A DNA stretch of 35,167 bases from Acidimicrobiia bacterium (GTDB lineage: Bacteria; Acidobacteriota; Terriglobia; Bryobacterales; Bryobacteraceae), in the NCBI GenBank assembly GCA_016871315.1, contig VFZE01000054.1, positions 1 to 35,167 on the forward strand, read 5' to 3'. The position numbers were made by a program, and so were the translations under genes. Shown here one piece after another: positions 10,673 to 27,806 of the stretch; positions within the stretch are counted from its first letter, which is position 1, and each line of letters starts with the position of its first letter. The notes under the pieces are model-generated. The model saw only the letters and a program-made list of their open reading frames with translations. It searched no databases and was not told the DNA's origin.

Positions 10673-10689
10673 GCTAACCTATTCTGGAA

Positions 10690-11082: not shown

Positions 11083-11086
11083 CCCC

Positions 11087-14083
11087 CTACACGCCGCCAA
11101 CCGTGATCTTCGCCGCGTTGCTCACCGCTAAGCCGATCGTGATCACCACGTCGTAATCGCCCGGCGGCAGTTCCGGCACAACCAGATTCGCCTGCGCCAG
11201 CCCCACAAATCCCGGTGACATCCCCAGGAACAGCACCGAGGCTTCGCGCCCTCCGATGGTTGCCGACACCTCGGCCATCGGCCTCGATAATGGCGAACTC
11301 GTCGCACCCGCGCCCGTAGCCACCGGATTATCCAGCAGGCCCTGCCCGCTCAGATACACAACAATCACCGCACCCGCCGCGATCGGGTTCTCCGCTGTGT
11401 TCACGCTGGCATCGGGATTCTGCGCCACCGCGCGCCCGGCGCCGAACATCAAAATCCCCGGCGCCGTCGCCGTAATCCGCACCGTCGCCTCCTGGCTGGC
11501 AACCCCGTTCACCGTGACACGTACGATCGCATCTCCTACGGTGGTCTCGTACGGCACCTGCCCGTTGATCTGGCCCGGACTGATGAAGTACAGCGGAGCC
11601 ACCCGGCCGTTCACCGTCACCTGCACTCCGCCCATCGTTTCCGGCCACGGAACTCCTCCCGCCTGCTGCGTCGCGCCCGCCAGATTCCTTCCGAACACGC
11701 TGAACAGTCCCCCGGGCGACAGCCGCGGCGTGCCGTCGGCCGCGTTCACAAATCCGCCGCTCGAAATCTCCGGCCTCACCACCGGCGCCGGCGGAGTCAA
11801 CTTCCTCACGCGTATGTTCAGGTTGTCCGCCACATAGACACTCCCTGCCGGATCCACCGCCACGTCCACCGGTGATTGGAACTCCGCGCTCAGCGCAGCA
11901 CCTCCATCGCCGCGGAATCCGCCGGTGCCGGTCCCCGCGATCGTTCGCAGCTGGCCCTGTGTATTCAGCACGCGCACGCGCTGATTGTCCGTATCGGCAA
12001 TCAATAGGTTGCCCGCTCCATCCAGCGCGATTCCCGTCGGCCTCGAAAGCCCAACCTCCGTTGCCGTCCCGTCTCCCTGGAACCCGGAGACTCCGTTTCC
12101 AGCCACCGTTTCAATGATCCCGTTCGGCCTCACCCTCCGGATGCGATGGTTACCGGAGTCGGCGATGTAGACGTTGCCCGCCGCGTCCACCACCACGTCG
12201 GTCGGTGTATTCAGCCGCGTCTCATTCGCATTCACCCCATCAGCCCGGTAGCCCGCCAGGCCGATGCCCGCGAATCGGCTCACCGTTCCGTCCGGCGCCA
12301 CACGCATCACATTGTGGAAATCCCGCAGCGTCACATATACGTTCCCGTTGCGGTCCGCCGCCACTCCACGCGGAGCCGGCAGCTGATCCGTCACCGAGAT
12401 CACGAACCGGTCCGCCGTTACACGGCGCACGCGGTTGTTCCCCGTGTCTCCAACCAGCACCCGCTGGTCAGAGTCAATTCCCAGACCCCTGGGTCCCTGG
12501 AATCCGGCCAGAAGAGCGTCTCCTCCGTCGCCGCTGAAATTCGGTTGGCCCGTACCCGCGAATCGTTCGATGTTCCCGTTGCTGCGTATGCGCCGCACGC
12601 GATTATTCGTCGGATCGGAAATGTACACATTGCCGTTGGCGTCGGCAGCCACCGAGTCCGGCGGCCCGATTCCGGCCAGGTTCGCCGGTCCTCCATCGCC
12701 GAACGTCGCGTTCTGCCCGATCCCCGTCGCCGTCGTGATCGTGTACCCATCTCCAGCCCCGGCCGCTCTCACGGTAACGCGCACCGGAATCACCACCGGG
12801 CTGTTGTTCGCCTGCGTGGAACTGATGCGGACCGTCCCGCTATGCGTTCCCTCCGCCAGTCCCTGCGCGTTCACGCGGACCGTCGCCGTTGCCCGTGTTG
12901 CCGCGGGAACGCCCGTCACCGTCAGCCAGCTCTCCCCGCTCGGGGTCACGCTCACCGGGGCCGACCACCTATCTGACTCCACCAATTCCACCGGCAGATC
13001 CAGCTGCCCTCTGCCCCCCGGCGGCAGGAAGAAATCGTACCGCGCCGTGGTTGCCGGCGAAAATAGCGTCGGCCGCACAAAACCGTTCCTTGTCTGCCAC
13101 CGTGTCACCGGATCCAGGAACCGGAACACCCCGCTGCTCGTTGCCGCCCAGATTACCGCGGGAGTAGTCGGTTCCGGGGAAACCGTCACATCCCTCAATC
13201 CACTCCCGGGGCAGAAGTTTTCCCAGAATCGCCCTTCATCCCGGCTGAGGACCAGGCACACCTCTTGCAATGTGCTCGCATAGACAAGCCGCCCGCCAGG
13301 GTCCAGCTTGATCGATGCCACTTGGATGGGCAACAGGATCGTGAAATTCTCTCCCTGGTCCGTGCTCCTGTACAGCCCGAAGCCGTCCCCGCTGCCTCGC
13401 GCCGCGATGAACACGGTCGACGGATTCACGGGCGACACCGCGATAATCGCCACCTGCGTTCCCGCTGCCAGGCTCAGTGGGAACTTCGGTGTCCACGTCC
13501 TGCCTTCATCCAGGCTCAAGAAAACCTGGTTCACCAAGTTGTGGAACATCACCGTCGGATCAGACGGCGCAATCGTAAATGCCCCAATCTCTCCCCGCAA
13601 CTTGGATTGCATCGTCCAGTTATCGCCACCATCCACGGTCTTGTAGACTTCATCCCGGATCTTCGCGTATAGCGTTAGCCGGTTGCCGGGTACCATGTGC
13701 AGCGACTCCACCGCTCCCCGTCCGGTCGGCAAGCCCCGGTTCGCCATCGCCCAGCTGTCTCCCCCGTCCCGCGTTCTCCACAACGCGCCATCGTCCAGGT
13801 CCGTCGCCACATACTGCACGCTGGCATTCACCGGATCGGCCACGATCATATGAACCGCCGGCTGACGCTGCCCGGCCGGCCTCAGGTGCAGCGCCTGCCA
13901 GTTGATCCCTTCATCGGCAGTGCGGAACAGTCCGCTCCCCACAGCCGCAAACACGCGCGGCGTGGCCCCAGCCGCCGCCGCAATCGCGTGCACCGGCTGA
14001 TTCATGAATAATTGCCCTTGGATCGGAAGGGCAATCAGAAAGGAAAAAAAGATGACGGCGAAAAGCCGCGTTTGGCAGGACAT
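11087..14083 (-). CDS. Secreted BNR/BACON/NHL-repeat protein with Solibacter-type C-terminal domain
   Basis: 998 residues. Signal peptide at 1-23 (ends IQG). Residues about 30-330 contain BNR/sortilin-like propeller repeats (GLFRTADEGINW, LWRTRDGGDSW, LYRSTDQGENF). A BACON-like beta-sandwich follows at about 345-440 (GESWLTVTG, GTVRISST). Residues about 445-770 hold NHL-type propeller blades with the repeated pattern GxVYIADSGNHRIRRV and GDGG. The last 225 residues match the domain known as the Solibacter uncharacterised C-terminal domain (TIGR03437): GGFVNAADGTPRLSPGG, FSVFGRNLA, PGQINGQVP. The protein is probably at the cell surface or secreted and binds ligands; no catalytic site is visible. 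It lies 30 bp after the ankyrin gene on the same strand, likely cotranscribed. Confidence 0.9.
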   Translation of the reverse strand: MSCQTRLFAVIFFSFLIALPIQGQLFMNQPVHAIAAAAGATPRVFAAVGSGLFRTADEGINWQALHLRPAGQRQPAVHMIVADPVNASVQYVATDLDDGALWRTRDGGDSWAMANRGLPTGRGAVESLHMVPGNRLTLYAKIRDEVYKTVDGGDNWTMQSKLRGEIGAFTIAPSDPTVMFHNLVNQVFLSLDEGRTWTPKFPLSLAAGTQVAIIAVSPVNPSTVFIAARGSGDGFGLYRSTDQGENFTILLPIQVASIKLDPGGRLVYASTLQEVCLVLSRDEGRFWENFCPGSGLRDVTVSPEPTTPAVIWAATSSGVFRFLDPVTRWQTRNGFVRPTLFSPATTARYDFFLPPGGRGQLDLPVELVESDRWSAPVSVTPSGESWLTVTGVPAATRATATVRVNAQGLAEGTHSGTVRISSTQANNSPVVIPVRVTVRAAGAGDGYTITTATGIGQNATFGDGGPANLAGIGPPDSVAADANGNVYISDPTNNRVRRIRSNGNIERFAGTGQPNFSGDGGDALLAGFQGPRGLGIDSDQRVLVGDTGNNRVRRVTADRFVISVTDQLPAPRGVAADRNGNVYVTLRDFHNVMRVAPDGTVSRFAGIGLAGYRADGVNANETRLNTPTDVVVDAAGNVYIADSGNHRIRRVRPNGIIETVAGNGVSGFQGDGTATEVGLSRPTGIALDGAGNLLIADTDNQRVRVLNTQGQLRTIAGTGTGGFRGDGGAALSAEFQSPVDVAVDPAGSVYVADNLNIRVRKLTPPAPVVRPEISSGGFVNAADGTPRLSPGGLFSVFGRNLAGATQQAGGVPWPETMGGVQVTVNGRVAPLYFISPGQINGQVPYETTVGDAIVRVTVNGVASQEATVRITATAPGILMFGAGRAVAQNPDASVNTAENPIAAGAVIVVYLSGQGLLDNPVATGAGATSSPLSRPMAEVSATIGGREASVLFLGMSPGFVGLAQANLVVPELPPGDYDVVITIGLAVSNAAKITVGGV

Positions 14084-15187: not shown

Positions 15188-15793
15188 TCAGGCTCGCCTC
15201 TGCCCACCGTAATACCGTTCGATCAACTCCCCCGTCCTCTCCGGCACCAGCTCCAACCACGGCTCACCGCCGCGAATCCTCCTTCTCACCTCGGTCGCCG
15301 ACAACTGATCCCAATCTCCCTCCACCCCCAATCGCCGGACTCCCTTCCCCAAATCCTCAAAGCTTCCCTGCCGGTCCGCAACCAGCAGTCCGAACTCCTC
15401 CAACTGCCGCTCGAATCCCGTCTCCCCCTCGTAATCCCATCCCGAGATCCGCTCCGCCGCATCCCGTCCGCACACAAACCAAATCTCCTCCAGCTCCTCA
15501 TAAGCAGCCCGGCACTCTCGCGCGATCTCCAGAAACAGTCCTCCCTCGCTCACAGCCAGCGAAAGCCCGGAACGTCCCTTCAACGCCGCTTCCACGATCT
15601 CCAGCCGTTCCGCCAGTCCCACCTCCTCGTACTTCTTGTGGGGAAACTCCCGTGGCATCACCAGCAGCACCTCATCCACATGCGCAAGAGCCGCCTCCGC
15701 CAGCGCCATGTGCGCCCGCGTCACCGGATGAAAACTCCCCGCCAGCACCCCCAGCCGACCCGCAACTCCCCCCGCTCGAACTACGAACTCCAT
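15188..15793 (-). CDS. nadD: Nicotinate-nucleotide adenylyltransferase-like nucleotidyltransferase
   Basis: 201 residues from ATG 15793. Nucleotidyltransferase superfamily: GSFHPVTRAH near the N-terminus is the (H/T)xxH signature, with Thr in place of the first His, and LSATEVRRRI near the C-terminus is the ISSTxIR-type motif. The family transfers AMP to nicotinate mononucleotide (NadD) or pantetheine phosphate (CoaD); the length and the middle FVCGRDAAERISGW fit NadD better. The ATG overlaps the end of hpnD by 13 bp, so it is translated with the hopanoid operon. A longer reading frame back to 15928 exists but would lie wholly inside hpnD. The specificity is an inference, since the first signature residue is unusual for NadD. 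Confidence 0.75.
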   Translation of the reverse strand: MEFVVRAGGVAGRLGVLAGSFHPVTRAHMALAEAALAHVDEVLLVMPREFPHKKYEEVGLAERLEIVEAALKGRSGLSLAVSEGGLFLEIARECRAAYEELEEIWFVCGRDAAERISGWDYEGETGFERQLEEFGLLVADRQGSFEDLGKGVRRLGVEGDWDQLSATEVRRRIRGGEPWLELVPERTGELIERYYGGQRRA

Positions 15794-16617
15794 CGCCACC
15801 GCCACTGCGCCCGAGCCAGAATCCATAGCTTCTCCGCCGCCGGCACCCGCACTCTCTCCGACAGCACTCGATACCCGCACCGCTCGATTCTCTCCAGCAG
15901 CCGCTGGTAGATTTCCATCAATGCCCACAGCGCCCCCGCGCAGGAGCGATCCACCATCTCCGGCAAAGCGCGCGCCTCCTGATAGTAGCCACCCGCACGC
16001 TCCGCCTCAAACCGCAGCAGCTCCAAAAACGCATCCGTCTCCCGGATCTCCTCCACCTGGAACCGCTCCATATCCTGCCGCGGCAAATACACCCGGCCAC
16101 GCTCGAAATCTTCTTTCACGTCCCTCAATATATTCGTCAGCTGAAACGCCACGCCGCACTTCTCGGCCAGCGCCAGCGCCTCCTTGCTCGTCGCCTGCAT
16201 CACATACATCAGCGACAACCCCGCCACCGACGCCACCTGGTAACAGTACCGGTACAGCTCCTCGAAATCCTCCATCCTGCTGCGCCGCAGGTCGGAACTC
16301 ACCCCGTCGATCATCTCCTGAAACAATTCCACCGGAATCCCGTACCGCGTCACCGTGTCGTGGAACGCCGGCCAGATCGGATCCGCGCCCCAAGCGCCTT
16401 CAAGCGCGCGGTTCAACTCACCTCGCCACTGCTCCAGCGCCTCCACCGTCGCTCCTGCCTCATCGCTCAGATCATCGCACCGCCGCATGAAAGCATAAAT
16501 CGCGCAGATGGCATCGCGCCGTTCCGCATCCAGCAGCCGGAACGCATAGAAGAAATTCCGCGCCCTCTTCCGCGTCACCTGCCGGCAATGCGCATAGGAG
16601 GATTCCCGCGCCGTCAC
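15781..16617 (-). CDS. hpnD: Presqualene diphosphate synthase HpnD
   Basis: 278 residues from GTG 16617. Trans-isoprenyl diphosphate synthase (squalene/phytoene synthase) family. Two aspartate-rich Mg-diphosphate motifs are present: CDDLSDE (Asp48, 49, 52) and NILRDVKED (Asp166, 170). In the HpnCDE route HpnD joins two farnesyl diphosphates to presqualene diphosphate, HpnC converts that to hydroxysqualene and HpnE reduces it to squalene. The assignment as HpnD rather than HpnC comes from RESSYAHC at the N-terminus and from order after hpnC. I chose GTG 16617 because it overlaps the hpnC stop as GTGA and has GGAG nine bases upstream; another GTG at 16644 would add 9 residues. Confidence 0.88.
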   Translation of the reverse strand: MTARESSYAHCRQVTRKRARNFFYAFRLLDAERRDAICAIYAFMRRCDDLSDEAGATVEALEQWRGELNRALEGAWGADPIWPAFHDTVTRYGIPVELFQEMIDGVSSDLRRSRMEDFEELYRYCYQVASVAGLSLMYVMQATSKEALALAEKCGVAFQLTNILRDVKEDFERGRVYLPRQDMERFQVEEIRETDAFLELLRFEAERAGGYYQEARALPEMVDRSCAGALWALMEIYQRLLERIERCGYRVLSERVRVPAAEKLWILARAQWRWRWSS

Positions 16618-17537
16618 GCCGCCCGTCTCCAACTCCAGCGCCACAGCGCCCCCAGCACCAGCATCACTCGTTCGCCCTTCGTGATCGCCGGACGCCGGCT
16701 CAGCACGTCGTAATCCTGCTCCTCGATCTTCTCCAGAATCCGCATCCCGCCTCGGCTGAAAAGCTGTAAGTCCAGTGACAGCCTCCGGTCTACCATCCCC
16801 GTCAGCGGCAACCCCTCTTCAAACAACCCCCGCGCCACTACAACCATCTCCTTCATCGCCGTGCGGAACTCTCCAGTGCACCGTAGCGCCTCCACATCCG
16901 CCACCGCGCACCCATGCGCCGCTAGCACGTCCAGCGGCATGTAGATCCGCCCCTTCTCCAGATCCACCGCCACGTCCTGCCAGAAATTCGCCAGTTGCAG
17001 AGCCGTGCATGTCGCATCCGACAGCCGTTGCCGCTCCTCGTCCCGGTACCCGCACAAATACAGAACCAGCCTCCCCACCGGATTCGCCGACCCTTTGCAA
17101 TAGCCGAACAGTTCCTCCCAATTCCGGTACCGGCTCACCCGCTGATCCTGCTCGAACGCCCCGATCAAATCCTGAAACGGCTCCGCCGGCAGCCGGTGCC
17201 GCTCCGCCGTCTCCCGCAGCGCCACAAAGACCGGGTGCGACACCCTCCCCTCATACATCCCACCCAGCTGCTCCCTCCACCACCCTAACAGCCGCAGACT
17301 CTCCGCCGTAGCCCCAATCTCATCGCCCAAATCATCCGCCCACCGGCAGAACGAGTACACGTTATAGAAATCCTGATGCAGATGCTTTGGCAGCAGGAAG
17401 CTCACCACATGGAAATTCTCGTAATGCGACGTCGCCAGCCAGCGAGTATAGGATAGTGACTCTTCGCGGTCCCACCGCCGCCCCATGGCCGGCCCATTGG
17501 CCACAAACTGCTTCGGAGCCGCAAACGAATCCTTCAA
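16614..17537 (-). CDS. hpnC: Hydroxysqualene synthase HpnC
   Basis: 307 residues from TTG 17537, or 290 from ATG 17486. Squalene/phytoene synthase fold with the first Asp motif ADDLGDE (Asp68, 69, 72 from TTG) and second motif NFWQDVAVD (Asp188, 192). SHYENFHVVSFLLP near the N-terminus is characteristic of HpnC, which turns presqualene diphosphate into hydroxysqualene. The TTG start lies 9 bp after the stop of the dehydrogenase gene upstream, with AAGAG before it; the ATG has only a weak GGGCC upstream, so the choice is open. It is followed by hpnD with an overlap. No hpnE flavoenzyme gene is found beside it, which is unusual since the three usually travel together. Confidence 0.88.
   Translation of the reverse strand: MKDSFAAPKQFVANGPAMGRRWDREESLSYTRWLATSHYENFHVVSFLLPKHLHQDFYNVYSFCRWADDLGDEIGATAESLRLLGWWREQLGGMYEGRVSHPVFVALRETAERHRLPAEPFQDLIGAFEQDQRVSRYRNWEELFGYCKGSANPVGRLVLYLCGYRDEERQRLSDATCTALQLANFWQDVAVDLEKGRIYMPLDVLAAHGCAVADVEALRCTGEFRTAMKEMVVVARGLFEEGLPLTGMVDRRLSLDLQLFSRGGMRILEKIEEQDYDVLSRRPAITKGERVMLVLGALWRWSWRRAA
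16627..16630 (-). promoter_or_regulatory. Ribosome binding site deciding the hpnD start
   Basis: GGAG on the minus strand, nine bases before GTG 16617. Together with the GTGA overlap with the hpnC stop it favours this start over the GTG at 16644. Confidence 0.5.
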
Positions 17538-17546
17538 TCCACGCTC

Positions 17547-18587
17547 TTACGGAATGATCGCCGTCTTCATGTGCCCGTTGTGGCTCATCAGATAGCGCAT
17601 CACTTCCAGCAGGTTCGACAGCGGCTCCACGCGGTTCACGAAATCGGCCGCCGTGATCTCTCCGCGCGACACCACATCCAGCGCCTGTTTCACGTGCGAC
17701 GGCGTGTGATGGAAACTTGCCTTGCAGGTGATCTCGGAATAGTGCAGCAGCGAAGTGTCGATCGTCACCCGGCTGTCGTTCGGGCATCCGCCGAAGAAAT
17801 TCACCGTCCCGCCACGCCGTACCATCCGCACCGCCTGCTCCCAGGTCTCCGGGATTCCCACCGCTTCAATGGCTACGTCCGCTCCGTGGCCCCCGGTCAG
17901 CTCACGCACTGCTCCCACCACGTCGAACCCGTCGTCGCCGATCAGCACGCTATCCGCCCCCAGCCGCGACGCGCGGTCCACTTGCGTCTTCCGTCTCCCC
18001 ACCGCGATCACACGCGCACCGGTCAGCTTCGCCAGCCGCACGAACATCAGCCCGATAGGACCCAGTCCCACCACCACCGCCGTATCGTCGCTGCGCAGCC
18101 CTGTCTCGGCCAGCCCACGCAACACGCATGCCAGCGGCTCAATCAGCGCCGCATCCTGATAACTCACATGATCCGGGATGTGGTATGTATTCTTCGCCAC
18201 AATCCGCGCCGGAATCCTCATGTACTCCGCATACGCCCCGTTGTTGAACAGCAGATCCTCGCACAGATTCTCGTGATTGCGCCGGCAGTAGTGGCATTCC
18301 CCGCACGGCGCCGAATTCACCGCCACTACTCGCTGCCCAGCTTGAAAGCCTGAAACTTCATCCCCCGCCGCGATCACATCTCCAGCCAACTCATGCCCGA
18401 ACAATGCCGGCGGCACGATCATGCGTGCGTGATATCCGCGCCGGAACACCTTCACATCCGTGCCGCAAGTTAAAGCCGCCTTAACCCGCACCAGCAGGTC
18501 GCCGGGCTCGATTTTCGGGATTTCAACGGACTCAACTCTCAGGTTCTCTTTGCCGTAGAGCACGGCCGCCTGCATGTGTCGATTCAC
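17547..18587 (-). CDS. Zinc-dependent medium-chain alcohol/polyol dehydrogenase (operon copy A)
   Basis: 346 residues of the MDR superfamily, close to sorbitol and threonine dehydrogenases. Catalytic zinc ligands are Cys41 (TCGTD), His65-Glu66 (GHE) and Glu150 (EPLAC); the structural zinc is held by Cys95, 98, 101 and 109. The Rossmann motif is GLGPIG (174-179), and the second strand ends in GRR rather than an acidic residue, hinting at NADP(H). It starts with GTG immediately after the stop of copy B, with AGAGGTGG upstream; ATG 18575 is an alternative start but is too far from that site. Its place between hpnG and hpnC suggests work on a hopanoid or a precursor, for example reduction of the open-chain ribosylhopane aldehyde. 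The substrate is not shown by sequence. Confidence 0.88.
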   Translation of the reverse strand: MNRHMQAAVLYGKENLRVESVEIPKIEPGDLLVRVKAALTCGTDVKVFRRGYHARMIVPPALFGHELAGDVIAAGDEVSGFQAGQRVVAVNSAPCGECHYCRRNHENLCEDLLFNNGAYAEYMRIPARIVAKNTYHIPDHVSYQDAALIEPLACVLRGLAETGLRSDDTAVVVGLGPIGLMFVRLAKLTGARVIAVGRRKTQVDRASRLGADSVLIGDDGFDVVGAVRELTGGHGADVAIEAVGIPETWEQAVRMVRRGGTVNFFGGCPNDSRVTIDTSLLHYSEITCKASFHHTPSHVKQALDVVSRGEITAADFVNRVEPLSNLLEVMRYLMSHNGHMKTAIIP

Positions 18588-19682
18588 TTAAGTCCACCTC
18601 TGTGGCTGAACAATTATTTTCAATGATTTAGCATCCGGATGCAACGCCAGTTCCATCCCCTCCGTCATCCGCGTCAATCCCACCCGGTGCGAAACCAACT
18701 CCTCCAGCGCCAGTTCGCCCTCAAATAGCAGCCGCGCCGACTCCGCCTGCAAATCCACCGCCGCGCTGTAGGAGCCCAGCAGTGTCCGCTCATCACGGCA
18801 AATATCGCCACCCGAAAGCTCGATCCGCTCCTGATCCGATGTCTGCGCGAACAGCATGATCTTGCTCCCCGGCCGCGACGCGCCTACCGCCTGCTCCACC
18901 ACGCCCGGCGCCGACACCGCCACGATGACTATGTCCGCTCCACGCCCCTCCGTTTGCCGCTTCACTTCTCCTGCTACATCTATCTCCCGCGGATCCCACG
19001 CCTCATCCGCCCCGAACCGCTTTGCCTGCTCCAGCCGCCTCGCGATCGTATCCGTCACCGCAGTCCTCGCCCCGCGCCGCCGGCACAGCATCGTAAACAT
19101 CATCCCGATCGGGCCCTGTCCCAAAATCAGCACGAACTCCTCGCGCGACGGCTGCAGCATCTCCACCGCCTTCAGGCACGTGTTCAGCGGTTCCAGCAGA
19201 CAGGCACGCTCATAGCTCACCCCGTCGGGGATCTTCTCCACGCCGCGCTTCACAATCCAGTCCATCACCCGCACGTACTGTCCGAATCCACCGCCCGCCG
19301 GCTCATACCCGCCCGTCACTCCTACTTTCTTATACACCGGACACTGCGCGTACAATCTGTGCCGGCAGTAGAAACAATCCAGGCACGGAATGTGATGGAA
19401 CACCGCGACACGATCGCCAATCTCAAACTTCGTCACTCCTGCTCCCGCCGCCACCACCTCGCCCGCCGTCTCATGCCCATAAATACGCGGCGGTGTCAGC
19501 AGGTCATACTCGATTTTCTTCAGGTCCGTGTGACAGATCCCGCAACTCTCCACGCGAACCAGCAGCTCTCCCGCCCCGATCTCAGGCACCGGCACTTCCT
19601 CCACCGTCACCTTGCCGCCGCCGGTATATACCGCCGCATGCATCCTCGCCGGTATCGATCCGTTAGAAGCTGCAGCCGGCAA
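18588..19682 (-). CDS. Zinc-dependent medium-chain alcohol dehydrogenase (operon copy B)
   Basis: 364 residues from TTG 19682 (351 from ATG 19643). MDR family with intact catalytic zinc ligands Cys47 (CGICHTD), His70-Glu71 and Glu164 (EPLNTC), and structural zinc Cys100, 103, 106 and 114. Nucleotide motif GQGPIG (188-193); the second strand ends in Asp (AVTDT), typical for NAD(H). The sequence differs substantially from copy A, so this is not a recent duplication. TTG is favoured by a strong GGGAGGG four bases upstream; it overlaps the hpnG stop by 20 bp. As with copy A, the operon position between hpnG and hpnC implies a role with hopanoids. A two-step oxidation/reduction with copy A is possible but unproven. 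Confidence 0.87.
   Translation of the reverse strand: MPAAASNGSIPARMHAAVYTGGGKVTVEEVPVPEIGAGELLVRVESCGICHTDLKKIEYDLLTPPRIYGHETAGEVVAAGAGVTKFEIGDRVAVFHHIPCLDCFYCRHRLYAQCPVYKKVGVTGGYEPAGGGFGQYVRVMDWIVKRGVEKIPDGVSYERACLLEPLNTCLKAVEMLQPSREEFVLILGQGPIGMMFTMLCRRRGARTAVTDTIARRLEQAKRFGADEAWDPREIDVAGEVKRQTEGRGADIVIVAVSAPGVVEQAVGASRPGSKIMLFAQTSDQERIELSGGDICRDERTLLGSYSAAVDLQAESARLLFEGELALEELVSHRVGLTRMTEGMELALHPDAKSLKIIVQPQRWT
18594..18601 (-). promoter_or_regulatory. Ribosome binding site deciding the GTG start of dehydrogenase A
   Basis: AGAGGTGG on the minus strand ends six bases before GTG 18587. The alternative ATG at 18575 would be 18 bases away, so GTG is the better start. Confidence 0.6.
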
Positions 19683-20379
19683 GAAACCCTCCCAGTCTCT
19701 CCGATGCCATCCGCGCCCGGCCCGCCAGCCGGATCAGCTCCGGCACCCGCTTCACGGGACGCCGCAACGCCGCTAGCACGATCCCGCCGCGCGAAAACCG
19801 GCCGTCATCATCCCGCAGCGAATTGAAATCCACCGAAAAGCTCTCCTCCGCCGTGTCCGTCACCGCGCGGATGCAGTAAAACCTCACCCCCGCCACCCGC
19901 GCACGCGCCTGCACGCCCATCGATTCCATGTCCACAGCCGCCGCCCCCGTCTTGGCCCGGACCGCGCGCTTTTCCTCCGCCGTCTGCAACACCCGGTCAT
20001 CGCAGGCAATCGCGCCGCGCGCCGCGGGACCGCACGCCGGACGCTCCGCCTCCATGCTCTGTCCCGTTTCCGTCTCCACCACTCGATCCGCGATGAATAC
20101 ATCGCCCGCTGCCAGCGCCGGATCCAGTCCGCCGCAGAAGCCCACGCTCACCACGGCATCCACCTTCTCGCGCTTGACCGCTTCATCCACCGCCGCCGCC
20201 GACAGCTTCGGCCCCGGACCGTTCGCTACCAGCAACCACCTGCGGCCACCCGATTCCGCGCATCGCCCGTACGCCACCGGCCAGGGCAGGGAAGCCGCTT
20301 CGGGCAGCCTCTTCAGCAGCCCCGCGAATTCCATCGACTCTGCCGCCACGCACAGCACCGTTGGCATCTGGTTGCTCAT
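19663..20379 (-). CDS. hpnG: Hopanoid-associated phosphorylase HpnG
   Basis: 238 residues, phosphorylase/nucleosidase (PNP_UDP) fold. Visible elements are GFCGGLDPALAAGD (80-93) and the purine/ribose-binding VDMES (149-153). In known hopanoid pathways HpnG removes adenine from adenosylhopane, the HpnH product, giving ribosyl- or phosphoribosylhopane, the precursor of bacteriohopanetetrol and aminobacteriohopanetriol. The ATG overlaps the hpnA stop as ATGA, so translation is coupled. The gene downstream is a zinc dehydrogenase, which would be well placed to act on the HpnG product. A plain nucleosidase of purine salvage is the alternative, but the operon argues strongly for HpnG. Confidence 0.88.
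   Translation of the reverse strand: MSNQMPTVLCVAAESMEFAGLLKRLPEAASLPWPVAYGRCAESGGRRWLLVANGPGPKLSAAAVDEAVKREKVDAVVSVGFCGGLDPALAAGDVFIADRVVETETGQSMEAERPACGPAARGAIACDDRVLQTAEEKRAVRAKTGAAAVDMESMGVQARARVAGVRFYCIRAVTDTAEESFSVDFNSLRDDDGRFSRGGIVLAALRRPVKRVPELIRLAGRARMASERLGGFLAGCSF
19687..19693 (-). promoter_or_regulatory. Ribosome binding site deciding the TTG start of dehydrogenase B
   Basis: GGGAGGG on the minus strand lies four bases before TTG 19682. The alternative ATG 19643 has only GAGG directly touching it, which is too close. Confidence 0.5.
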
Positions 20380-21356
20380 CCGCAGTACCCGTTATCCCGG
20401 AACCACTTCACCGCGCGTTCCAGCGCTTTGTACACCGGCGCAGGCTCCAATCCCAATTCACGGACCGCTCTCGCGTTCCGTACGAACATCTTCTTCCGCG
20501 CCATCCGTACCCCCTCCAGCGGCGCACGCGGCGGCTTGCCCGTAATCTCCGCCCACGCCGTGCTGCACACCCCTGCCGCGTATGCCACCGGGTAAGGAAT
20601 CCTCACCGACGGCGCGCGACGCCCGCTGATCCGCTCCAGCCTCTCGAAAATCTCCCGCAGCGTCAGGTTCTCCGCGCCAAGTATATACCGCGTGCCCGGC
20701 TTGCCCCGCTCGCACGCCAGCAGATGCCCTTCCGCCGTGTCCCTGACATCGATCAAGTTCAGCCCCGTATCCACATACGCCGGCATCTCGCCCTTCAAAT
20801 AATCCACGATGATCTTCCCCGTCGGCGTCGGCTTCACGTCGTGATCTCCCACCGGAGCCGTCGGATTCACTATCACCACCGGAAACCCTTCCCCCGCGAA
20901 CTCCACCGCCCTCTGTTCCGCCAGAAACTTCGACTTCTTATAATCCCCGCTCATCTCCTCCAAACCCACCGCTGTCGTCTCATCACCGGCTCCTCCCGCG
21001 GGAATCCCGATGCAGCCCACCGTGCTCGTGTACACGAACCGCTCCACCCCCGCCGCCCGCGCCGCGCGCAACAGGTTCCCCGTCCCCTCCACGTTGCTCT
21101 CGTACAACTCCCGCGGGTCGGCCGCCCACAGCCGATAATCCGCCGCGACGTGATACACCACTCCGCAGCCCGCTGCCGCTCGTTCCAGCGAACCCGCATC
21201 CCGCAGATCTCCCGTGACCGTCTCCACCCCATCCAGTTCCCGCACCCGGCTCCCAAGCCGCACCAGCGCCCTCACCGGCTGCCCCTTCTCCAGCAGCCGC
21301 CGCGCCACATGCCAGCCCACAAAACCACTTGCTCCCGTTACCAGATTCGGCTTCAC
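20376..21356 (-). CDS. hpnA: Hopanoid-associated sugar epimerase HpnA
   Basis: 326 residues from GTG 21356. Extended short-chain dehydrogenase/epimerase family: NAD-binding GASGFVG near residue 8, VYTSTVG with the catalytic Ser/Thr, and the active-site YKKSK (Tyr139, Lys143). The hpnA gene accompanies hpnH and hpnG in many hopanoid producers, but its reaction has not been settled. MKPNLVTGASGFVG is the expected beginning of the fold; an upstream GTG (21389) would add 11 charged residues and overlap hpnH, and both starts have weak ribosome sites. The stop overlaps hpnG as ATGA. Confidence 0.87.
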   Translation of the reverse strand: MKPNLVTGASGFVGWHVARRLLEKGQPVRALVRLGSRVRELDGVETVTGDLRDAGSLERAAAGCGVVYHVAADYRLWAADPRELYESNVEGTGNLLRAARAAGVERFVYTSTVGCIGIPAGGAGDETTAVGLEEMSGDYKKSKFLAEQRAVEFAGEGFPVVIVNPTAPVGDHDVKPTPTGKIIVDYLKGEMPAYVDTGLNLIDVRDTAEGHLLACERGKPGTRYILGAENLTLREIFERLERISGRRAPSVRIPYPVAYAAGVCSTAWAEITGKPPRAPLEGVRMARKKMFVRNARAVRELGLEPAPVYKALERAVKWFRDNGYCG

Positions 21357-21373
21357 CTTTTTCTCGATACGTT

Positions 21374-22483
21374 CTATCGCAGCGCCCACTCCAGCATCCG
21401 CAGCCCGTCCTTCAGCTGCCCGTTGATGCCCAGCGCCGCTGACGGTTCATAGCCGCAATGCACCATGCAATGCTCGCACCGCGGATCGTTGCCGTGTCCG
21501 TAGCTCTCCCAGTCCGTCTTCGTCATCAGATCCTCGAACGTTTCATAATGCGCGTCCGTGATCAGGTAGCACGGGCCTTTCCAGCCCTTGATGTTGTACG
21601 TCGGATTCCCCCACGCCGTGCACGGCAGCTCCCGCTCCCCCTTGAGGAAATCCTGATACACCGGCGTCGCGTTCAACGCATACTTCGCGCCCAGCCGGTC
21701 GATATTCTTGAACTTCTCCCGGATGTCTTCCCGGGTCAGAAAAATCTCACGGTCGTTCACCGCCAAGTACGCATACCCCGGCGATATCATGTGCCCGTCT
21801 AGATCAAACGGTTTCAGGTACTCGAACAGCGCCTCCACCTCCGCCATGTCCGTCTCCTGAAACACCGTCGTGTTCGTGCACACTTTGAACCCGGCCGCCT
21901 TCGCCGCCTTGATCCCCTCAATCGCCTCCCGGAACACGCCGTCCCGCTCCACACATAAATCGTGCGTCTTCTCCAGCCCATCCAGATGCACGTTGAAAAA
22001 CAGCTTCGGGTCGGGCCGGTAATCGCCCAGCTTCTTCCGGATGAACATCCCGTTCGTGCACAGGTAAATATGCTTGCCGCGCTCGAGGATCTTCTCCACC
22101 AGCTCCGGCAGTTGCGGATACAGCATCGGCTCCCCGCCGCAAATCGACACCACCGGCGCGCCGCATTCATCCACCGCGCGCAGGCACTCCTCCACGCTCA
22201 GCATCTCCGTAATCGTCGACTCGTACTCCCGGATCCGCCCACATCCCGTGCACGTCAGATTGCAGGCATGCAGCGGCTCCAGCATCAGCACCAGCGGAAA
22301 CCGCTTCCCGATCATCGGATGCGGCTCACGCTTCCTCTTCGCCGGACCCCCGTGAATAATCTTGAACGGATTCGCGGAACCGTTCGCCGCTACTCTATTT
22401 TCCTGCCACTCCGGCCGCGGCCGGAACTTGTTCCGGAAGATGTAGCCCGCCATCCCCGCCGTCATCGATAGCGGAAATCTCAT
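21374..22483 (-). CDS. hpnH: Adenosylhopane synthase HpnH (radical SAM)
   Basis: 369 residues. The radical-SAM cluster motif is CNLTCTGC (Cys74, 78, 81), followed by CGGEPMLYP and a C-terminal cysteine group (CEHCMVHCGYEPSAA). HpnH joins the 5-prime-deoxyadenosyl radical from SAM to diploptene, starting the C35 hopanoid side chain. The start ATG overlaps the stop of the cyclase gene as ATGA. Odd feature: between the N-terminal hydrophobic stretch (to about 22) and the core (RFPLVLMLEP from 61) there is a hydrophilic, Asn/Lys-rich segment of roughly 30 residues that I do not expect in HpnH proteins, where the two parts usually follow closely. Confidence 0.93.
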   Translation of the reverse strand: MRFPLSMTAGMAGYIFRNKFRPRPEWQENRVAANGSANPFKIIHGGPAKRKREPHPMIGKRFPLVLMLEPLHACNLTCTGCGRIREYESTITEMLSVEECLRAVDECGAPVVSICGGEPMLYPQLPELVEKILERGKHIYLCTNGMFIRKKLGDYRPDPKLFFNVHLDGLEKTHDLCVERDGVFREAIEGIKAAKAAGFKVCTNTTVFQETDMAEVEALFEYLKPFDLDGHMISPGYAYLAVNDREIFLTREDIREKFKNIDRLGAKYALNATPVYQDFLKGERELPCTAWGNPTYNIKGWKGPCYLITDAHYETFEDLMTKTDWESYGHGNDPRCEHCMVHCGYEPSAALGINGQLKDGLRMLEWALR

Positions 22484-24402
22484 GCCCGCCCCTCCCCGAT
22501 CTTCAGGTATTCCGACAACGCCAGCAGCGGAAACGAATCCCGGTACAGATGGTACGTCAAATAGAACACCCGCGGAAATCCGGTTCCCGTCGCCACATCT
22601 TCGCTCCAGCTTCCGTCATCCCGCTGCGTCTCCACCAGGTATTCAATGCCCTTGCGCAAGCTCATGCTCGTGTGATCCCCGCTCGCCAGAAGCCCCAGCA
22701 CTGCCCATGCCGTCTGTGACGCGCAGCTCGGGTTCCTGACGTAACAGCCACGGTCGTAACTCTCGCAGCTCTCTCCCCACCCGCCATCGGCGTTCTGGAT
22801 TGACCGCAGCCACTCTCCGGCACGCAACACATGCGCCTCCCGGTCGCTCTCTCCCGCCGCCCGCAAACCGCGCAGCGCCAGAATCGTTCCGTAGATGTAG
22901 TTCACTCCCCAGCGCCCGTACCAGCTGCCTTCGTCTTCTTGGGTCTCCAGCAGATACTTCACTCCACGCCGGATGGCCGGATGATCTTTGCTCACCCCGC
23001 ACGTGCACAATGCCTCCATCACCCTCCCCGTGATATCAGGGCACGTCGGATCCAGCATCGCGTTGTGATCCGCGAACGGAACATCCGCCAGAAATTCCCA
23101 GTTGTTGTCCACGTCAAACGCCGCCCAGCCACCGTCCTTTGACTGCATGTCCAACAGCCACTGGACCGCTCGCTTCTCCGTCGCCGCCTGCGCCTTCTCG
23201 TCGGCTGAACGCGCATAGCGCAGCCCCATCAGCACCATCGCCGAATCGTCAATGTCCGGATAAAACTCGTTCGCGAACTCAAAGTACCAGCCCGACGGCT
23301 CCGTATTCGGACGCTTCACGCTCCAGTCGCCCTTCTGCCGTACCTCTTTCTTCAGCAGCCAGTCTCCGCAACGCTGCATCGCCTCCACGGGCGCCAGCCC
23401 GCTGCGGCCCACCGCGTACGCCGCGATCCCCGTATCCCACACCGGTGAAAAACACGGTTGAAAAAAGAATCCCCGCTCATCATTCACCATCAGGCGGTTG
23501 AACTGCGTTTCCGCCTCTACTCGCCCCGGATGCTCCGCGCCATATCCCAGCAGATCCAGTGCCATGATGATGTACTGCATCGGCGGATAGATCGCCGCCA
23601 GCCCGTCAGAATGCTTCGTGTGCTCCAGCATCCATTGCTCGGCCTTGCGCAGCGCTTTTTCCCGCAAGCTTTTTGACCCGAACCGCTCCCACAACTTCAA
23701 TCCCTTGTCCACCGTGAGGAAGAAATTCCGCCCGCTGAAGAACCCGTCGTTGTTCGGGAACTTCATGCTCGCCCCTTCCAGGTACAGCTCCCGCAAGTCG
23801 AACCCATCCGGCACTGGCCGCGACGGGTTGTAGGCGTGCACCACTGACAGCGGAATCACGATTGCCCGCGTCCATGACGACATCTCATAAATGAAATTCC
23901 GCAATAGAATAAGCTCCGGCGGAATCGACGGGCACCACTCGCGCGGATACAGGTTGAACAGGCTCAGGTTCACCTTCACGTAGCTGTTGGCTGCCTGTAT
24001 CCCGCCCAGCGCCAGGATCCGCTCCCGCGCCTTCTCCAGCCGCGGATCTTCCACATCGATCCCGGCCAGCTTCAGCGCGAAATACGCCTTCACCGTCGCG
24101 CTGATCTCGCTCGGTCCGCCCGGATAGATGTTGAACCCGCCATCCCCCAGCTGCCGCGCCAGTATCGATTGCGCCGCCTTGTCCACAAGCTCACGCGTCG
24201 GCGGATTCCACGCCGCTCCCTCGGGCCGGTGCAGAAACAGCTGCAGCAGAATATAGTCGGACTCAAGCGTCGTGTCCGCCGTCAGATCGCCCCACCAGTA
24301 ACCCTCCGCATGCTGACGGCTCAACAGGCTTCGCGCGGCTTTCTCTACTGCTCTCTCGGTCTCCAGCCGCAAGGAGTCCGCGAGTTGAACCCCGGCGCTC
24401 AT
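22480..24402 (-). CDS. shc: Squalene-hopene cyclase
   Basis: 640 residues, the usual length. The catalytic acid motif DxDD is DIDD (383-386), and several QW repeats are present (QSKDGGW, QNADGGW, QRDDGSW). SPVWDTG (319-325) and FDVDNNW also match the family. The enzyme cyclises squalene to hopene/hopanol at the membrane, giving the HpnH substrate. The start ATG 24402 overlaps the ispH stop as ATGA; the reading frame stays open back to 24597, but that part lies inside ispH and is not homologous. Known alternative symbol is hpnF. Confidence 0.95.
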   Translation of the reverse strand: MSAGVQLADSLRLETERAVEKAARSLLSRQHAEGYWWGDLTADTTLESDYILLQLFLHRPEGAAWNPPTRELVDKAAQSILARQLGDGGFNIYPGGPSEISATVKAYFALKLAGIDVEDPRLEKARERILALGGIQAANSYVKVNLSLFNLYPREWCPSIPPELILLRNFIYEMSSWTRAIVIPLSVVHAYNPSRPVPDGFDLRELYLEGASMKFPNNDGFFSGRNFFLTVDKGLKLWERFGSKSLREKALRKAEQWMLEHTKHSDGLAAIYPPMQYIIMALDLLGYGAEHPGRVEAETQFNRLMVNDERGFFFQPCFSPVWDTGIAAYAVGRSGLAPVEAMQRCGDWLLKKEVRQKGDWSVKRPNTEPSGWYFEFANEFYPDIDDSAMVLMGLRYARSADEKAQAATEKRAVQWLLDMQSKDGGWAAFDVDNNWEFLADVPFADHNAMLDPTCPDITGRVMEALCTCGVSKDHPAIRRGVKYLLETQEDEGSWYGRWGVNYIYGTILALRGLRAAGESDREAHVLRAGEWLRSIQNADGGWGESCESYDRGCYVRNPSCASQTAWAVLGLLASGDHTSMSLRKGIEYLVETQRDDGSWSEDVATGTGFPRVFYLTYHLYRDSFPLLALSEYLKIGEGRA

Positions 24403-25388
24403 AATGCGATTTGTGTCAGTTGTTGCGGAGCCTGTAATTCGCCCGGCAGCGAAAACCGGACATCCTCTTCCTTGATCTCCCGCTCTTCCACCCGGTCGAA
24501 CCCGAACCGCGCAAGCGAGCTCACCAGGTTCTGCACCAATACCTCCGGCGCCGACGCCCCCGCCGTCACCACCACCGTCTCCACGCCGTCCATCCACCGC
24601 GCATCCACATCGTGCTCATCGTCCACCAGGTACGCCGGCGTCCCCTCGTTCTGGCAAACCTCCACCATCCGCCGCGAATTCGAGCTGTTCTGCGATCCCA
24701 CCACCAGCAGCAGCTGGCATTCCCCCGCCACCGCCTTCACCGCGAACTGCCGGTTCTCCGTCGCGTAACAAATATCCTGCGCCGGCGGAGCCTGCATCTT
24801 CGGGAATCGCGCCTTCAGCCGCGCGATGATCCCCGATGTCTCATCCCAACTCAGCGTCGTCTGCGTCAGGTAGCACACGCGTTCCGGATCAGGAACCTGC
24901 ACTCTCTCCGCCTCCGCCTCATCCGAGACCACGATCGTCGCCTGTGGAGCCTCCCCCATCGTCCCGATCACTTCATCATGTTCACGGTGCCCGATCAGCA
25001 GAATCGTGTAGCCTTCCCGCGCGAACTTCAGTGCCTCCAGGTGCACCTTCGTCACCAATGGACACGTCGCGTCGATGACATCCAGCTTCCGCTCCTTCGC
25101 CTCCGCTCGAACCGCCGGCGAAACCCCGTGCGCGCTGAAGATCGCACGCGCCCCCTCCGGTACCTCCGACAGCTCCTCCACAAAGATCGCGCCCGCACGC
25201 CGCAACTCTTCCACCACGTGCCGGTTGTGCACGATCTCTTTCCTTACATAAATGGGGGGCCTAAACACGTCCAGGGCGATCTTCACCACGTCAATCGCGC
25301 GCACCACTCCCGCGCAAAAGCCCCGTGGCGTCAGCAATATCACCCGTTTGCCCGTTGTTTCGCCGCTCGGCGAACCGTGCGAACTCAT
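24399..25388 (-). CDS. ispH: 4-hydroxy-3-methylbut-2-enyl diphosphate reductase
   Basis: 329 residues from ATG 25388. The three iron-sulfur ligands are Cys25 (GFCAGV), Cys109 (DATCPLV) and Cys207 (CYATENRQ); SAHGVSP and TENRQ are active-site motifs. This is the last step of the MEP pathway, making IPP and DMAPP. As first gene of the operon it ties isoprenoid supply to hopanoid synthesis. An in-frame TTG at 25409 would add 7 residues; neither start has a good ribosome site, and the upstream neighbour starts 22 bp away on the other strand. Confidence 0.94.
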   Translation of the reverse strand: MSSHGSPSGETTGKRVILLTPRGFCAGVVRAIDVVKIALDVFRPPIYVRKEIVHNRHVVEELRRAGAIFVEELSEVPEGARAIFSAHGVSPAVRAEAKERKLDVIDATCPLVTKVHLEALKFAREGYTILLIGHREHDEVIGTMGEAPQATIVVSDEAEAERVQVPDPERVCYLTQTTLSWDETSGIIARLKARFPKMQAPPAQDICYATENRQFAVKAVAGECQLLLVVGSQNSSNSRRMVEVCQNEGTPAYLVDDEHDVDARWMDGVETVVVTAGASAPEVLVQNLVSSLARFGFDRVEEREIKEEDVRFSLPGELQAPQQLTQIAL

Positions 25389-25410: not shown

Positions 25411-26076
25411 ATGCGCCGCCGTCACTTCCTTTCTCTCTCCGCGGAATCCGTCGGCGGCCTCCTTATTTACAGCCTCCAGCGCACGCCTCTCCGCGCTCAA
25501 TCTCAATCCGGAACCATCCGCGTTCCCCTCAAGTTCTTCACCGAAAAACAGGCCCTCCTCCTCGCCGCCGCCGCCGCCCGCATCTTCCCTTCAGACGATA
25601 CCGGCCCCGGCGCCAACGAAGCCGGCGTCGTCCTCTATATTGACCGCCAGCTCGCCTCAGCCTATGGCCGCGACCGCTTCCGCTACACCGCCGAACCCTT
25701 CCTCGACGGCCCGCCCGAACTCGGCCACCAAGGCCCCCTCACCCCGCGCCAGATCTACTCTGAAGGCCTTGCGCAACTCGAAGGCATCGACACCCTTTCC
25801 CCTGAAGATGCCGACGCAAAGCTCCGCTCCATCGAACGAACCCCCTTCTTCTCCCTCCTCCGCCAACACACCATCGAAGGCATGTTCTGCGACCCCATGC
25901 ACGGCGGCAACATCGATAAAATCGGCTGGCAATTGATCGGATTCCCCGGCCCTCGCATGAGCTATTTCTCTGAAGTCGATTCCTATTACGGCAAGCCCTT
26001 CCGCCCCAGACCCGAGAGCCTCTCGGAAATCCTCGGCCGCCCCGTCACTCCTTCCGAAGACGAGGAGCCCGCATGA
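25411..26076 (+). CDS. Gluconate 2-dehydrogenase subunit 3 family protein
   Basis: 221 residues. The N-terminus RRRHFLSLSAESVGGLLIYSL is a plausible twin-arginine signal, followed by an Ala-Gln-type cleavage site. The body is typical for the family: FFTEKQALLLAAAAARIFPSDDTGPGANEAGV, then a C-terminal part with FCDPMHGGNIDKIGW and GFPGPRMSY. It should be the exported small subunit of the GMC dehydrogenase encoded next; the two genes overlap as ATGA. Gene order is small then large subunit, opposite to the pair at 8.4-10.7 kb. It is divergent from ispH with only 22 bp between the start codons. Confidence 0.92.
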   Translation: MRRRHFLSLSAESVGGLLIYSLQRTPLRAQSQSGTIRVPLKFFTEKQALLLAAAAARIFPSDDTGPGANEAGVVLYIDRQLASAYGRDRFRYTAEPFLDGPPELGHQGPLTPRQIYSEGLAQLEGIDTLSPEDADAKLRSIERTPFFSLLRQHTIEGMFCDPMHGGNIDKIGWQLIGFPGPRMSYFSEVDSYYGKPFRPRPESLSEILGRPVTPSEDEEPA

Positions 26077-27806
26077 GAACCCTCAAACCCGTCGACGTCG
26101 TGATCGTTGGCGGCGGCTGGACCGGCCTCCTCATGGCCAAGGAACTCTCCGCCGACTCGGCTCGCTCCATCGTTGTCCTCGAACGTGGCCCCGCGCGCAA
26201 AACCGCCGACTATATCGACGACATGGATGAACTCGACTATGCCATCCGCCTCCGCATGATGCAGGACATCCGGCACGAAACTGTCACCGTCCGCCACACC
26301 GTCCAGGACCGCGCCCTCCCCGTTCGCCAGTACGGCTCCTTCCTCCCCGGCACCGGCACCGGCGGCGGAGGCGAACACTGGAGCGGCATCAGCTACCGCT
26401 ACCTTCCGCAATCCTTCAAAATCGCCTCCCATCTTCGCGAACGCTACGGCGCAGCACGCCTACCCGAAGACCACGCCCTGCAAGACTGGCCCGTCACCTT
26501 TGACGAACTCGAACCCTTCTACTGGCAAGCCGAACAACTCCTCGGCCTCTCCGGCAAAGCCGGCAATCTCCGCGGCAAACGTCAACCAGGTGGCAACATC
26601 TTTGAAGGTCCCCGCTCTCACGAATACCCTACGCCGCCGATGAAGCGTCCCTACCTCGCAGAGCTCTTCCATCAAGCCGCAACAAAACTCGGCTACCACC
26701 CCCATCCCCTCCCCGCTGCCACCAACTCGCAAAGCTACCGCAACCCCGACGGCATCTTGCGCTCCGGCTGTGTCTACTGCGGCTACTGTGAACGCTACGG
26801 CTGCATGATCGGCGCAAAAGCCCAGCCCACCAACACTCTCCTCCCCGTCCTCAACCGCCGCCGCAACTTCACCCTCCGCAACGGCTGCTGGGTCCGCCGC
26901 GTCGTCGTCGAATCCGGCAAGGCCCGCGGCGTCACCTACATCGACGTCTCGGGCGAAGAAGTCTTCCAACCCGCCGAAATGGTAATGCTCGCCTCCTGGA
27001 GCATTAACAACACCCGCCTTCTCCTCCTCTCCAAAATCGGCGAACCCTACAACCCCGCAACCGGCAAAGGCCAAATAGGACGCAACCTCACCCACCAGGT
27101 CTCCCTCCCCGCCGCCATGGCCTTCTTCCCCCAACCCCTCAACCGCTTCATCGGCGCAGGCTCGGCCGGCGTCGCCATCGCCGACTTCGACGCCGATTTC
27201 CTCGATCATTCCGATCTCGGCTTCCAAGGCGGCGGCATCATCTACACCGTCTGCTACGGCTTCCGCCCCATGGCCAACTTCGGCGTCGTTCCAACCTCCG
27301 TCAAATCCACCTGGGGCTCCGACTGGAAGAAAGCCGCCCTCCACCACTATGACCGCACCGGCCGCATCTCTTTCTACGGCGAGCATCACTCCTACCGCTC
27401 CCATTACATGGACCTCGACCCCACCTACAAAGATAAGTACGGCGACCCGCTCATCCGCATGACCATCGACTGGACCGATAACGAGCGCCGCATGGGCGCT
27501 CACATGTCCGTAAAAGCCGCCGAAATCGCCCGCGCCATGGGAGCCACCGAAATCACTCCCCACCCCGGCCTCCGCCGTTACGACGCCACACGCTACCAGT
27601 CCACTCACATCCAAGGCGGCGTCATCATGGGCGACAGCCCCGAAAACTCCGCCATCAACAGCTACCACCAACTCTGGCAGACCCCCAACCTATTCGTCCT
27701 CGGCGCTTCCGCCTGGCCCCAAAATCCCAGCGTCAACCCCACTCTCACCGCTCTCGCGCTCACCCACCGCGCCGCCCATGCCATCCGCACCCGCTCCTTG
27801 CTATAA
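26073..27806 (+). CDS. GMC-family FAD-dependent oxidoreductase (large subunit)
   Basis: 577 residues. FAD-binding VIVGGGWTG (10-18) and VLERGP follow at the N-terminus; GTGTGGGGEHWSG (93-105) is the GMC signature region; the C-terminal QNPSVNPTLTALAL closes the fold. Cys233, 236, 239 and 244 in CVYCGYCERYGC form a cluster like that of the first GMC protein and may bind iron-sulfur (inference). It has no signal and probably leaves with its Tat-bearing partner encoded just upstream (ATGA overlap). The role is likely periplasmic oxidation of a sugar-type substrate; the electron acceptor is not encoded here. The S9 peptidase gene follows after 11 bp with its own good ribosome site, so the three genes likely form one unit. 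Confidence 0.93.
   Translation: MRTLKPVDVVIVGGGWTGLLMAKELSADSARSIVVLERGPARKTADYIDDMDELDYAIRLRMMQDIRHETVTVRHTVQDRALPVRQYGSFLPGTGTGGGGEHWSGISYRYLPQSFKIASHLRERYGAARLPEDHALQDWPVTFDELEPFYWQAEQLLGLSGKAGNLRGKRQPGGNIFEGPRSHEYPTPPMKRPYLAELFHQAATKLGYHPHPLPAATNSQSYRNPDGILRSGCVYCGYCERYGCMIGAKAQPTNTLLPVLNRRRNFTLRNGCWVRRVVVESGKARGVTYIDVSGEEVFQPAEMVMLASWSINNTRLLLLSKIGEPYNPATGKGQIGRNLTHQVSLPAAMAFFPQPLNRFIGAGSAGVAIADFDADFLDHSDLGFQGGGIIYTVCYGFRPMANFGVVPTSVKSTWGSDWKKAALHHYDRTGRISFYGEHHSYRSHYMDLDPTYKDKYGDPLIRMTIDWTDNERRMGAHMSVKAAEIARAMGATEITPHPGLRRYDATRYQSTHIQGGVIMGDSPENSAINSYHQLWQTPNLFVLGASAWPQNPSVNPTLTALALTHRAAHAIRTRSLL

Follow-up and report, generated by a model that had tools for sequence, protein, structure and literature searches.

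The window analysed here is the whole of a 35,167-nucleotide stretch (contig VFZE01000054.1, positions 1 to 35,167, assembly GCA_016871315.1) from an Acidimicrobiia bacterium that GTDB places among the Bryobacteraceae (Acidobacteriota). It carries on its minus strand a hopanoid operon with the gene order shc-hpnH-hpnA-hpnG-MDR1-MDR2-hpnC-hpnD (Table 1). The two genes in question, MDR1 and MDR2, lie head to tail and encode medium-chain zinc dehydrogenases (MDR); they correspond to copy B and copy A, respectively, of a first-pass annotation, which had put them forward as candidates for the missing ribosylhopane reductase. The overlapping or abutting gene ends described in that annotation are indeed present: the end of hpnG and MDR1 share 20 bases if MDR1 starts at TTG 19682, the MDR1 stop codon is directly followed by the GTG start of MDR2, and the hpnC open reading frame (ORF) begins nine bases after MDR2. 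An alternative MDR1 start, ATG 19643, would leave a gap of 19 bases to hpnG and matches the chosen start of most orthologues.

Both proteins contain the Pfam domains ADH_N and ADH_zinc_N, in this order and well above cut-off. The residues C50, H70, E71 and E164, together with C100, C103, C106 and C114 (numbering of the 364-amino-acid form), are invariant in 29 of 29 MDR1 proteins, and C37, H61, E62 and E146, together with C91, C94, C97 and C105 (342-amino-acid form, start at 18575), in 30 of 30 MDR2 proteins. We take the two quartets of each protein to be catalytic and structural zinc ligands, respectively, as in polyol dehydrogenases. The ORFs, domains and invariant residues thus bear out the description of two MDR genes with complete zinc ligands between hpnG and hpnC. 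In MDR enzymes, an acidic residue at the coenzyme position indicates NAD, and the lack of such a residue combined with basic neighbours indicates NADP. This position is occupied by D in 28 of the 29 MDR1 proteins and by E in the other one; 32 of 33 MDR2 proteins have a non-acidic residue there, and in all 33 the next residue is K, R or N. Since these residues are kept across homologues, the NAD type of MDR1 and the NADP type of MDR2, already proposed for the two copies, appear to be conserved properties of the two families.

AlphaFold models of MDR1 and MDR2 (pLDDT 92.8 and 92.0) display the MDR fold, with Z scores of about 37–43 against the 50 solved dehydrogenases listed for each of them. 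The closest named models are those of threonine, inositol and polyol dehydrogenases. Neither protein reaches the cut-offs of the equivalogs for L-threonine 3-dehydrogenase, scyllo-inosose dehydrogenase or galactitol-1-phosphate dehydrogenase, the top equivalog scores being 151.6 bits for MDR1 (cut-off 380) and 171.7 bits for MDR2 (cut-off 450). Because all these scores fall far below the curated cut-offs, no specific enzyme name applies to either protein.

Table 1. The MDR genes and the other genes of the hopanoid operon in the window.
Gene	Product	Position	Strand	Remarks
MDR1	NAD-type zinc-dependent medium-chain dehydrogenase, 364 amino acids, directly after hpnG	18588..19682	-	Start TTG 19682 or ATG 19643
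MDR2	NADP-type zinc-dependent medium-chain dehydrogenase, 346 amino acids, between MDR1 and hpnC	17547..18587	-	GTG start
hpnG	Adenosylhopane nucleosidase/phosphorylase	19663..20379	-	TIGR03468, E 7.5e-43, 146.6 bits, below cut-off 187.1
hpnA	Extended short-chain dehydrogenase/reductase (SDR; 'hopanoid-associated sugar epimerase'), rival reductase candidate	20376..21389	-	TIGR03466, 458 bits, above cut-off
hpnH	Radical SAM adenosylhopane synthase	21374..22483	-	TIGR03470, 431 bits, above cut-off
shc	Squalene-hopene cyclase	22480..24597	-	TIGR01507, 645 bits, above cut-off
hpnC	Squalene synthase HpnC	16614..17537	-	TIGR03464, 346 bits, above cut-off
hpnD	Presqualene diphosphate synthase	15781..16644	-	TIGR03465, 254.1 bits, best model, below cut-off 278.6

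We searched one draw of 199 Acidobacteriota genomes with MDR1, MDR2, HpnA, HpnC, HpnG, HpnH and HpnJ, scoring up to 10 candidates per genome for MDR1 and MDR2. Close orthologues of MDR1 are present in 29 genomes (47–100% identity, E 1.7e-100 or better) and are separated by a clear gap from the next-best matches (38% identity or less, E 1.4e-61 or worse). Close MDR2 proteins (at least 52% identity, E 2.9e-114 or better; next match 2.0e-89) were found in all 29 MDR1 genomes and in one more, G132. The two genes are adjacent in 17 of the 29 genomes and otherwise lie on different contigs (five genomes) or 11–856 kb apart (seven genomes), so that both are present in every MDR1 genome, even the 12 in which they are unlinked. 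HpnH is encoded by 50 of the 199 genomes and by 28 of the 29 with MDR1 (Fisher test 2e-19, ignoring kinship), the sole MDR1 genome without it being G113, which is 93% complete and split into about 340 contigs. The curated cut-off of the HpnG model is reached in none of the 199 genomes, yet genes at the hpnG position are frequent, and TIGR03468 is by far the best model for HpnG of the window though it stays under that cut-off; naming genes by this cut-off would therefore miss the acidobacterial HpnG.

The linkage of MDR1 to hpnG, for which the first-pass annotation had suggested a survey, was recovered in most genomes. The two genes lie less than 500 bases apart on the same strand in 20 of the 29 genomes and 795 bases apart in one more; in G130, the distance is 68 bases, while hpnA is 48 kb away. 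A scan of contigs from other genomes provided further loci, of which we retained the best 80 matches, all with acidobacterial titles (mostly Bryobacterales, Bryobacteraceae, Solibacter or unspecific); the close identities of 64–73% suggest that the window comes from this group. Among these loci, hpnG precedes MDR1 in 79 and MDR2 follows MDR1 in 75, the six remaining places being contig ends, and hpnC follows MDR2 in 74 of the 75 loci that show MDR2 (the exception being L155). The recurrence of hpnG before MDR1 in so many loci from other records indicates that the arrangement is not due to chance. Fusions of neighbouring operon genes were not found among the 80 best loci. An apparent MDR1-MDR2 fusion in G176 (L207, an ORF of 691 amino acids) was rejected, as its first half is an out-of-frame reading and only the second half is MDR1-like.

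The phylogeny of 98 MDR proteins, obtained by a quick search without bootstrap, with an arbitrary root and long branches among the outgroup paralogues, groups the 29 MDR1 proteins in one clade (support 99) and 33 close MDR2 proteins in another (support 98). The latter includes four proteins from genomes without HpnH, and within it those 29 MDR2 that come from MDR1 genomes form a group of their own (support 92). More distant MDR1-like proteins branch with MDR1 (support 95) and most MDR2-like proteins with MDR2 (support 89, below the 95 mark), the MDR2-like proteins of L070 and L208 falling outside this grouping. In several other families, the MDR1-like and MDR2-like genes are adjacent, in either order and with no hpn genes in the stretches fetched; we could not detect a common neighbour theme among the lineages scanned. 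All 12 MDR1-like proteins have D or E at the coenzyme position, and 13 of 15 MDR2-like proteins have G or A there, with R as the next residue. The wider pair thus shows the NAD/NADP split as well, and a two-dehydrogenase unit with distinct coenzymes probably existed before it entered the hopanoid operon. One 53% homologue of MDR2 (L068, on contig C23 of G132, 9240–12412), in a genome without HpnH, is divergent to mtnB, a gene of the ARD family (at the mtnD position) and mtnC. This methionine-salvage neighbourhood was considered as a clue to a 5-substituted ribose substrate and abandoned, as no mtn match was found around the three other close MDR2 genes.

We propose that, in some Acidobacteriota, MDR1 and MDR2 form one unit whose target is the C5 side chain that hopanoids derive from ribose. 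The hopane skeleton would first receive a 5'-deoxyadenosyl group from HpnH, after which HpnG, or a protein related to it, would release adenine and so give ribosylhopane; both steps are taken from the literature and assigned here from the genes present. MDR2, as a zinc-dependent enzyme of the NADPH type, would then convert ribosylhopane into bacteriohopanetetrol (BHT) by reducing its open-chain aldehyde to the C35 alcohol. MDR1, zinc-dependent and of the NAD type, would be a second enzyme in the series and work on this side chain too: it may be another polyol dehydrogenase, acting reversibly, or it may oxidize a hydroxyl group and so allow its configuration or position to change. Given the linkage to hpnG or hpnA, the near-restriction of MDR1 to HpnH genomes and the polyol-dehydrogenase relatives, the side chain derived from ribose is the most likely substrate. 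For the conversion of ribosylhopane to BHT, MDR2 is favoured over MDR1 because it is of the NADPH type, and the cell-free reduction of ribosylhopane reportedly used NADPH. We give the proposal as a whole a probability of roughly 0.4. That at least one of the two enzymes acts on the hopanoid side chain is quite likely; that MDR2 or MDR1 is the ribosylhopane reductase falls somewhat short of even odds. The origin of the pair would best be explained by the recruitment of an older NAD/NADP pair of polyol dehydrogenases to the ribose-derived side chain.

Several observations weigh against this proposal. Close MDR1 and MDR2 are both absent from 22 of the 50 HpnH genomes, eight of which carry just a distant MDR2-like gene (37–45% identity); this excludes a universal reductase and leaves a lineage-specific one tenable. 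The 29 MDR1 genomes belong to only five families (f1, f2, f28, f39 and f50), so that the independent events are few. In seven of them, all from family f28, it is hpnA that lies 95–212 bases before MDR1, with no hpnG in between, so that a strict tie of MDR1 to HpnG does not hold. In G066, the pair sits on a different contig from shc, hpnA, hpnG and hpnC. Models of secondary-alcohol dehydrogenases (threonine, polyol) outscore the aldehyde reductase model for both proteins. The related tandem pair occurs both with and without HpnH, and four genomes of the G132 class (G132, G205, G208 and G218) have a close MDR2 (52–54%) and no HpnH. Of the 58 genomes in this class, 23 encode MDR2 or an MDR2-like protein at E below 1e-75, 25 encode HpnH and 13 encode both (Fisher test 0.11). 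The claim of the first-pass annotation therefore has to be narrowed: the association of the pair with the synthesis of bacteriohopanepolyol (BHP) side chains is supported, and its role as the missing reductase in general is not, given the HpnH genomes without the pair, the f28 gene order, the close MDR2 and wider pairs in genomes without HpnH, and the equally plausible case of HpnA. Ribosylhopane reductase is a candidate role for MDR1 and MDR2.

HpnA is the main rival to the MDR pair, and its candidacy as the reductase is equally plausible. It exceeds its cut-off in 49 of the 199 genomes, including all 29 with MDR1 and 48 of the 50 with HpnH, among them 20 of the 22 HpnH genomes without MDR1. 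Besides its own model, it matches SDR dehydrogenase/epimerase families and, under cut-off, an SDR of the sterol demethylase pathway and 2-alkyl-3-oxoalkanoate reductase, and it was suggested for the ribosylhopane step by the authors of PMC5462960. If HpnA reduces ribosylhopane, MDR1 and MDR2 could modify the side chain afterwards in a lineage-specific way, leading for instance to another stereoisomer or towards penta-functionalised BHPs, and a pair of NAD-type and NADP-type dehydrogenases would suit an oxidation followed by a reduction; no lineage-specific product was linked to MDR1 or MDR2 in this analysis, and we regard this combined scenario as possible and somewhat doubtful. The pair might instead belong to general sugar or polyol metabolism and merely ride in the hopanoid operon, as the HpnH-less tandem pairs in both gene orders without shared neighbours, the close MDR2 in four HpnH-less genomes and the G132 copy divergent to mtnB-mtnD-mtnC could suggest. 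The separate clades formed by the 29 MDR1 and by the 29 MDR2 of the same genomes, and the near-confinement of MDR1 to HpnH genomes, make this unlikely. As to an ordinary distribution without hpn genes, which the first-pass annotation said would refute its idea, MDR1 is found almost only with HpnH; close MDR2 and the wider pair also occur without it.

The position of MDR2 before hpnC raises another possibility, also mentioned in the first-pass annotation, that the pair has an upstream role, with prenyl alcohols as substrates or in the making of squalene. A gene of the squalene-synthase family (HpnC, or HpnD-like where HpnC over cut-off is missing) indeed lies beside MDR2 in 28 of the 29 genomes, and the available text of PMC5462960 treats the hpnC-adjacent gene together with the squalene cluster. 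Nevertheless, none of the 28 genomes in which HpnC exceeds its cut-off and HpnH is missing contains MDR2, which indicates that the pair follows side-chain synthesis rather than squalene synthesis and renders the upstream role highly improbable. Seven HpnH genomes with MDR2 and no HpnC over cut-off, at first counted against a squalene role, favour neither view, since each of them still has a gene of the HpnC or HpnD family beside MDR2. An action on a cyclitol or amino-sugar head group made through HpnJ seems no more probable than the upstream role: scyllo-inosose dehydrogenase is the best equivalog model for MDR2 (well below cut-off, as noted) and the genome of the window encodes HpnJ (767 bits), but HpnJ is missing from eight of the 29 MDR1 genomes, MDR1 is missing from eight of the 29 HpnJ genomes, and the MDR genes sit with hpnG or hpnA, hpnJ of the window's genome being on another contig.

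The lineages without MDR1 may employ an unrelated replacement reductase. Part of the genes and of the 22 genomes concerned were scanned for such reductases after hpnG. A possible example is an F420-dependent luciferase-like (LLM-class) oxidoreductase of G108 (L081, 12295–13197; TIGR03560 over cut-off), located directly after hpnG. The FMN_dh genes of G059, G099 and G152 were discarded, as they correspond to type 2 isopentenyl-diphosphate isomerases, and in G029 and G192 the gene after hpnG is HpnD-like. The last step of BHT synthesis might thus have been solved independently in different bacteria, part of the Acidobacteriota having co-opted a ready-made NAD/NADPH pair of polyol dehydrogenases in which MDR2 reduces ribosylhopane and MDR1, in a second, NAD-linked step, fixes or inverts a hydroxyl group of the side chain; we consider this broader scenario speculative and fairly unlikely. 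If true, it would mean that the ribosylhopane step lacks one universal enzyme, which could explain its escape from comparative genomics. Hopanoids, sterol-like lipids of bacteria, are major geological biomarkers, and MDR1 and MDR2 are concrete, purifiable candidates with predicted coenzymes, for which lineages with and without the genes are at hand.

Some other features of these loci deserve mention. In the window, the shc ORF probably starts too far upstream, as the model match opens at residue 79. A nadD-like gene (15188–15928, minus strand; 56 bits for a cut-off of 112) overlaps the end of hpnD, and a nadD-like gene (more than 60 bits) follows hpnD in three of the 80 best loci (L089, L095 and L133). 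Two separate gene pairs, each encoding a Gluconate_2-dh3 small subunit and a GMC oxidoreductase, flank the operon (8395–10672, minus strand, and 25411–27806, plus strand). Elsewhere, hpnH lies between shc and hpnA in 46 of 72 best loci and was not found there in the other 26, so that in many of these loci it no longer belongs to the operon, through relocation or loss. The shc genes of L110, L114, L115 and L139 are unusually divergent (34–43% in matched parts), the remaining operon being ordinary. G007 (L074) encodes shc, hpnH and hpnJ, and we did not find hpnA, hpnG, hpnC, MDR1 or MDR2 in it at the thresholds used; either gene loss or an assembly gap could account for this, and with an assembly of about 100 contigs we do not count this genome as a natural deletion. 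A loss of hpnG in f28 was also considered, and we have softened this claim, as bit scores alone fail to split the f28 homologues from MDR1-side genes elsewhere; the three f28 homologues tested each score higher with one or more nucleosidase or futalosine hydrolase models than with HpnG. G240 (L231, contig C47, 7489–15999), from this same family, of which seven genomes were surveyed, has an HpnG-like gene some 5 kb away from hpnD-MDR2-MDR1.

Among characterized enzymes, MDR1 and MDR2 share the two-domain fold and the conserved zinc-ligand residues of the zinc-dependent threonine 3-dehydrogenases and polyol (sorbitol) dehydrogenases, with 26–33% identity to solved threonine dehydrogenases in structure alignments, and differ from this branch in remaining far below every curated equivalog cut-off. 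The top structural match of both models is a protein of Sinorhizobium meliloti (4ej6/4ejm, the latter with NADP), titled just putative zinc-binding dehydrogenase. It aligns with MDR1 over 335 residues (Z 40.7, root-mean-square deviation 2.4, 29% identity; tied with the next match) and with MDR2 over 331 residues (Z 43.4, root-mean-square deviation 1.6–1.7, 34% identity).

As far as its available text goes, a 2025 paper (PMC12583986) still describes the enzyme converting ribosylhopane to BHT as not established, in agreement with the first-pass annotation, and a gene for this reductase is not named in the accessible parts of the open-licence literature searched, including PMC8537080, PMC5358736 and PMC4676935. 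The closest precedent is the description of acidobacterial clusters hpnA-hpnG-ug1 and ug2-hpnC-hpnD-hpnE (Front Microbiol 2017, PMC5462960). In the portions of that paper available to us, ug2 precedes hpnC, encodes about 350 amino acids and frequently carries the annotation of Zn-binding alcohol dehydrogenase, the function of ug1 and ug2 is left open and HpnA is proposed for the ribosylhopane step; ug2 is assigned to all SD1 and SD3 in one place, and SD3 cluster A is said to be without it in another. The same portions report that Chloracidobacterium thermophilum makes BHT without the hpnC-adjacent gene, a further point against the proposal made here. By position, length and annotation, ug2 fits MDR2; ug1, to which that text gives no family, would fit MDR1 by its place after hpnA-hpnG. 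One difference lies in the context assigned to ug2, discussed there with the squalene genes, whereas MDR2 follows the side chain here. Relative to the available text of these papers, the present analysis adds an identity and a coenzyme type for each of the two genes, the dissociation of MDR2 from squalene synthesis, the co-occurrence data and the kinship with a wider tandem pair of dehydrogenases.

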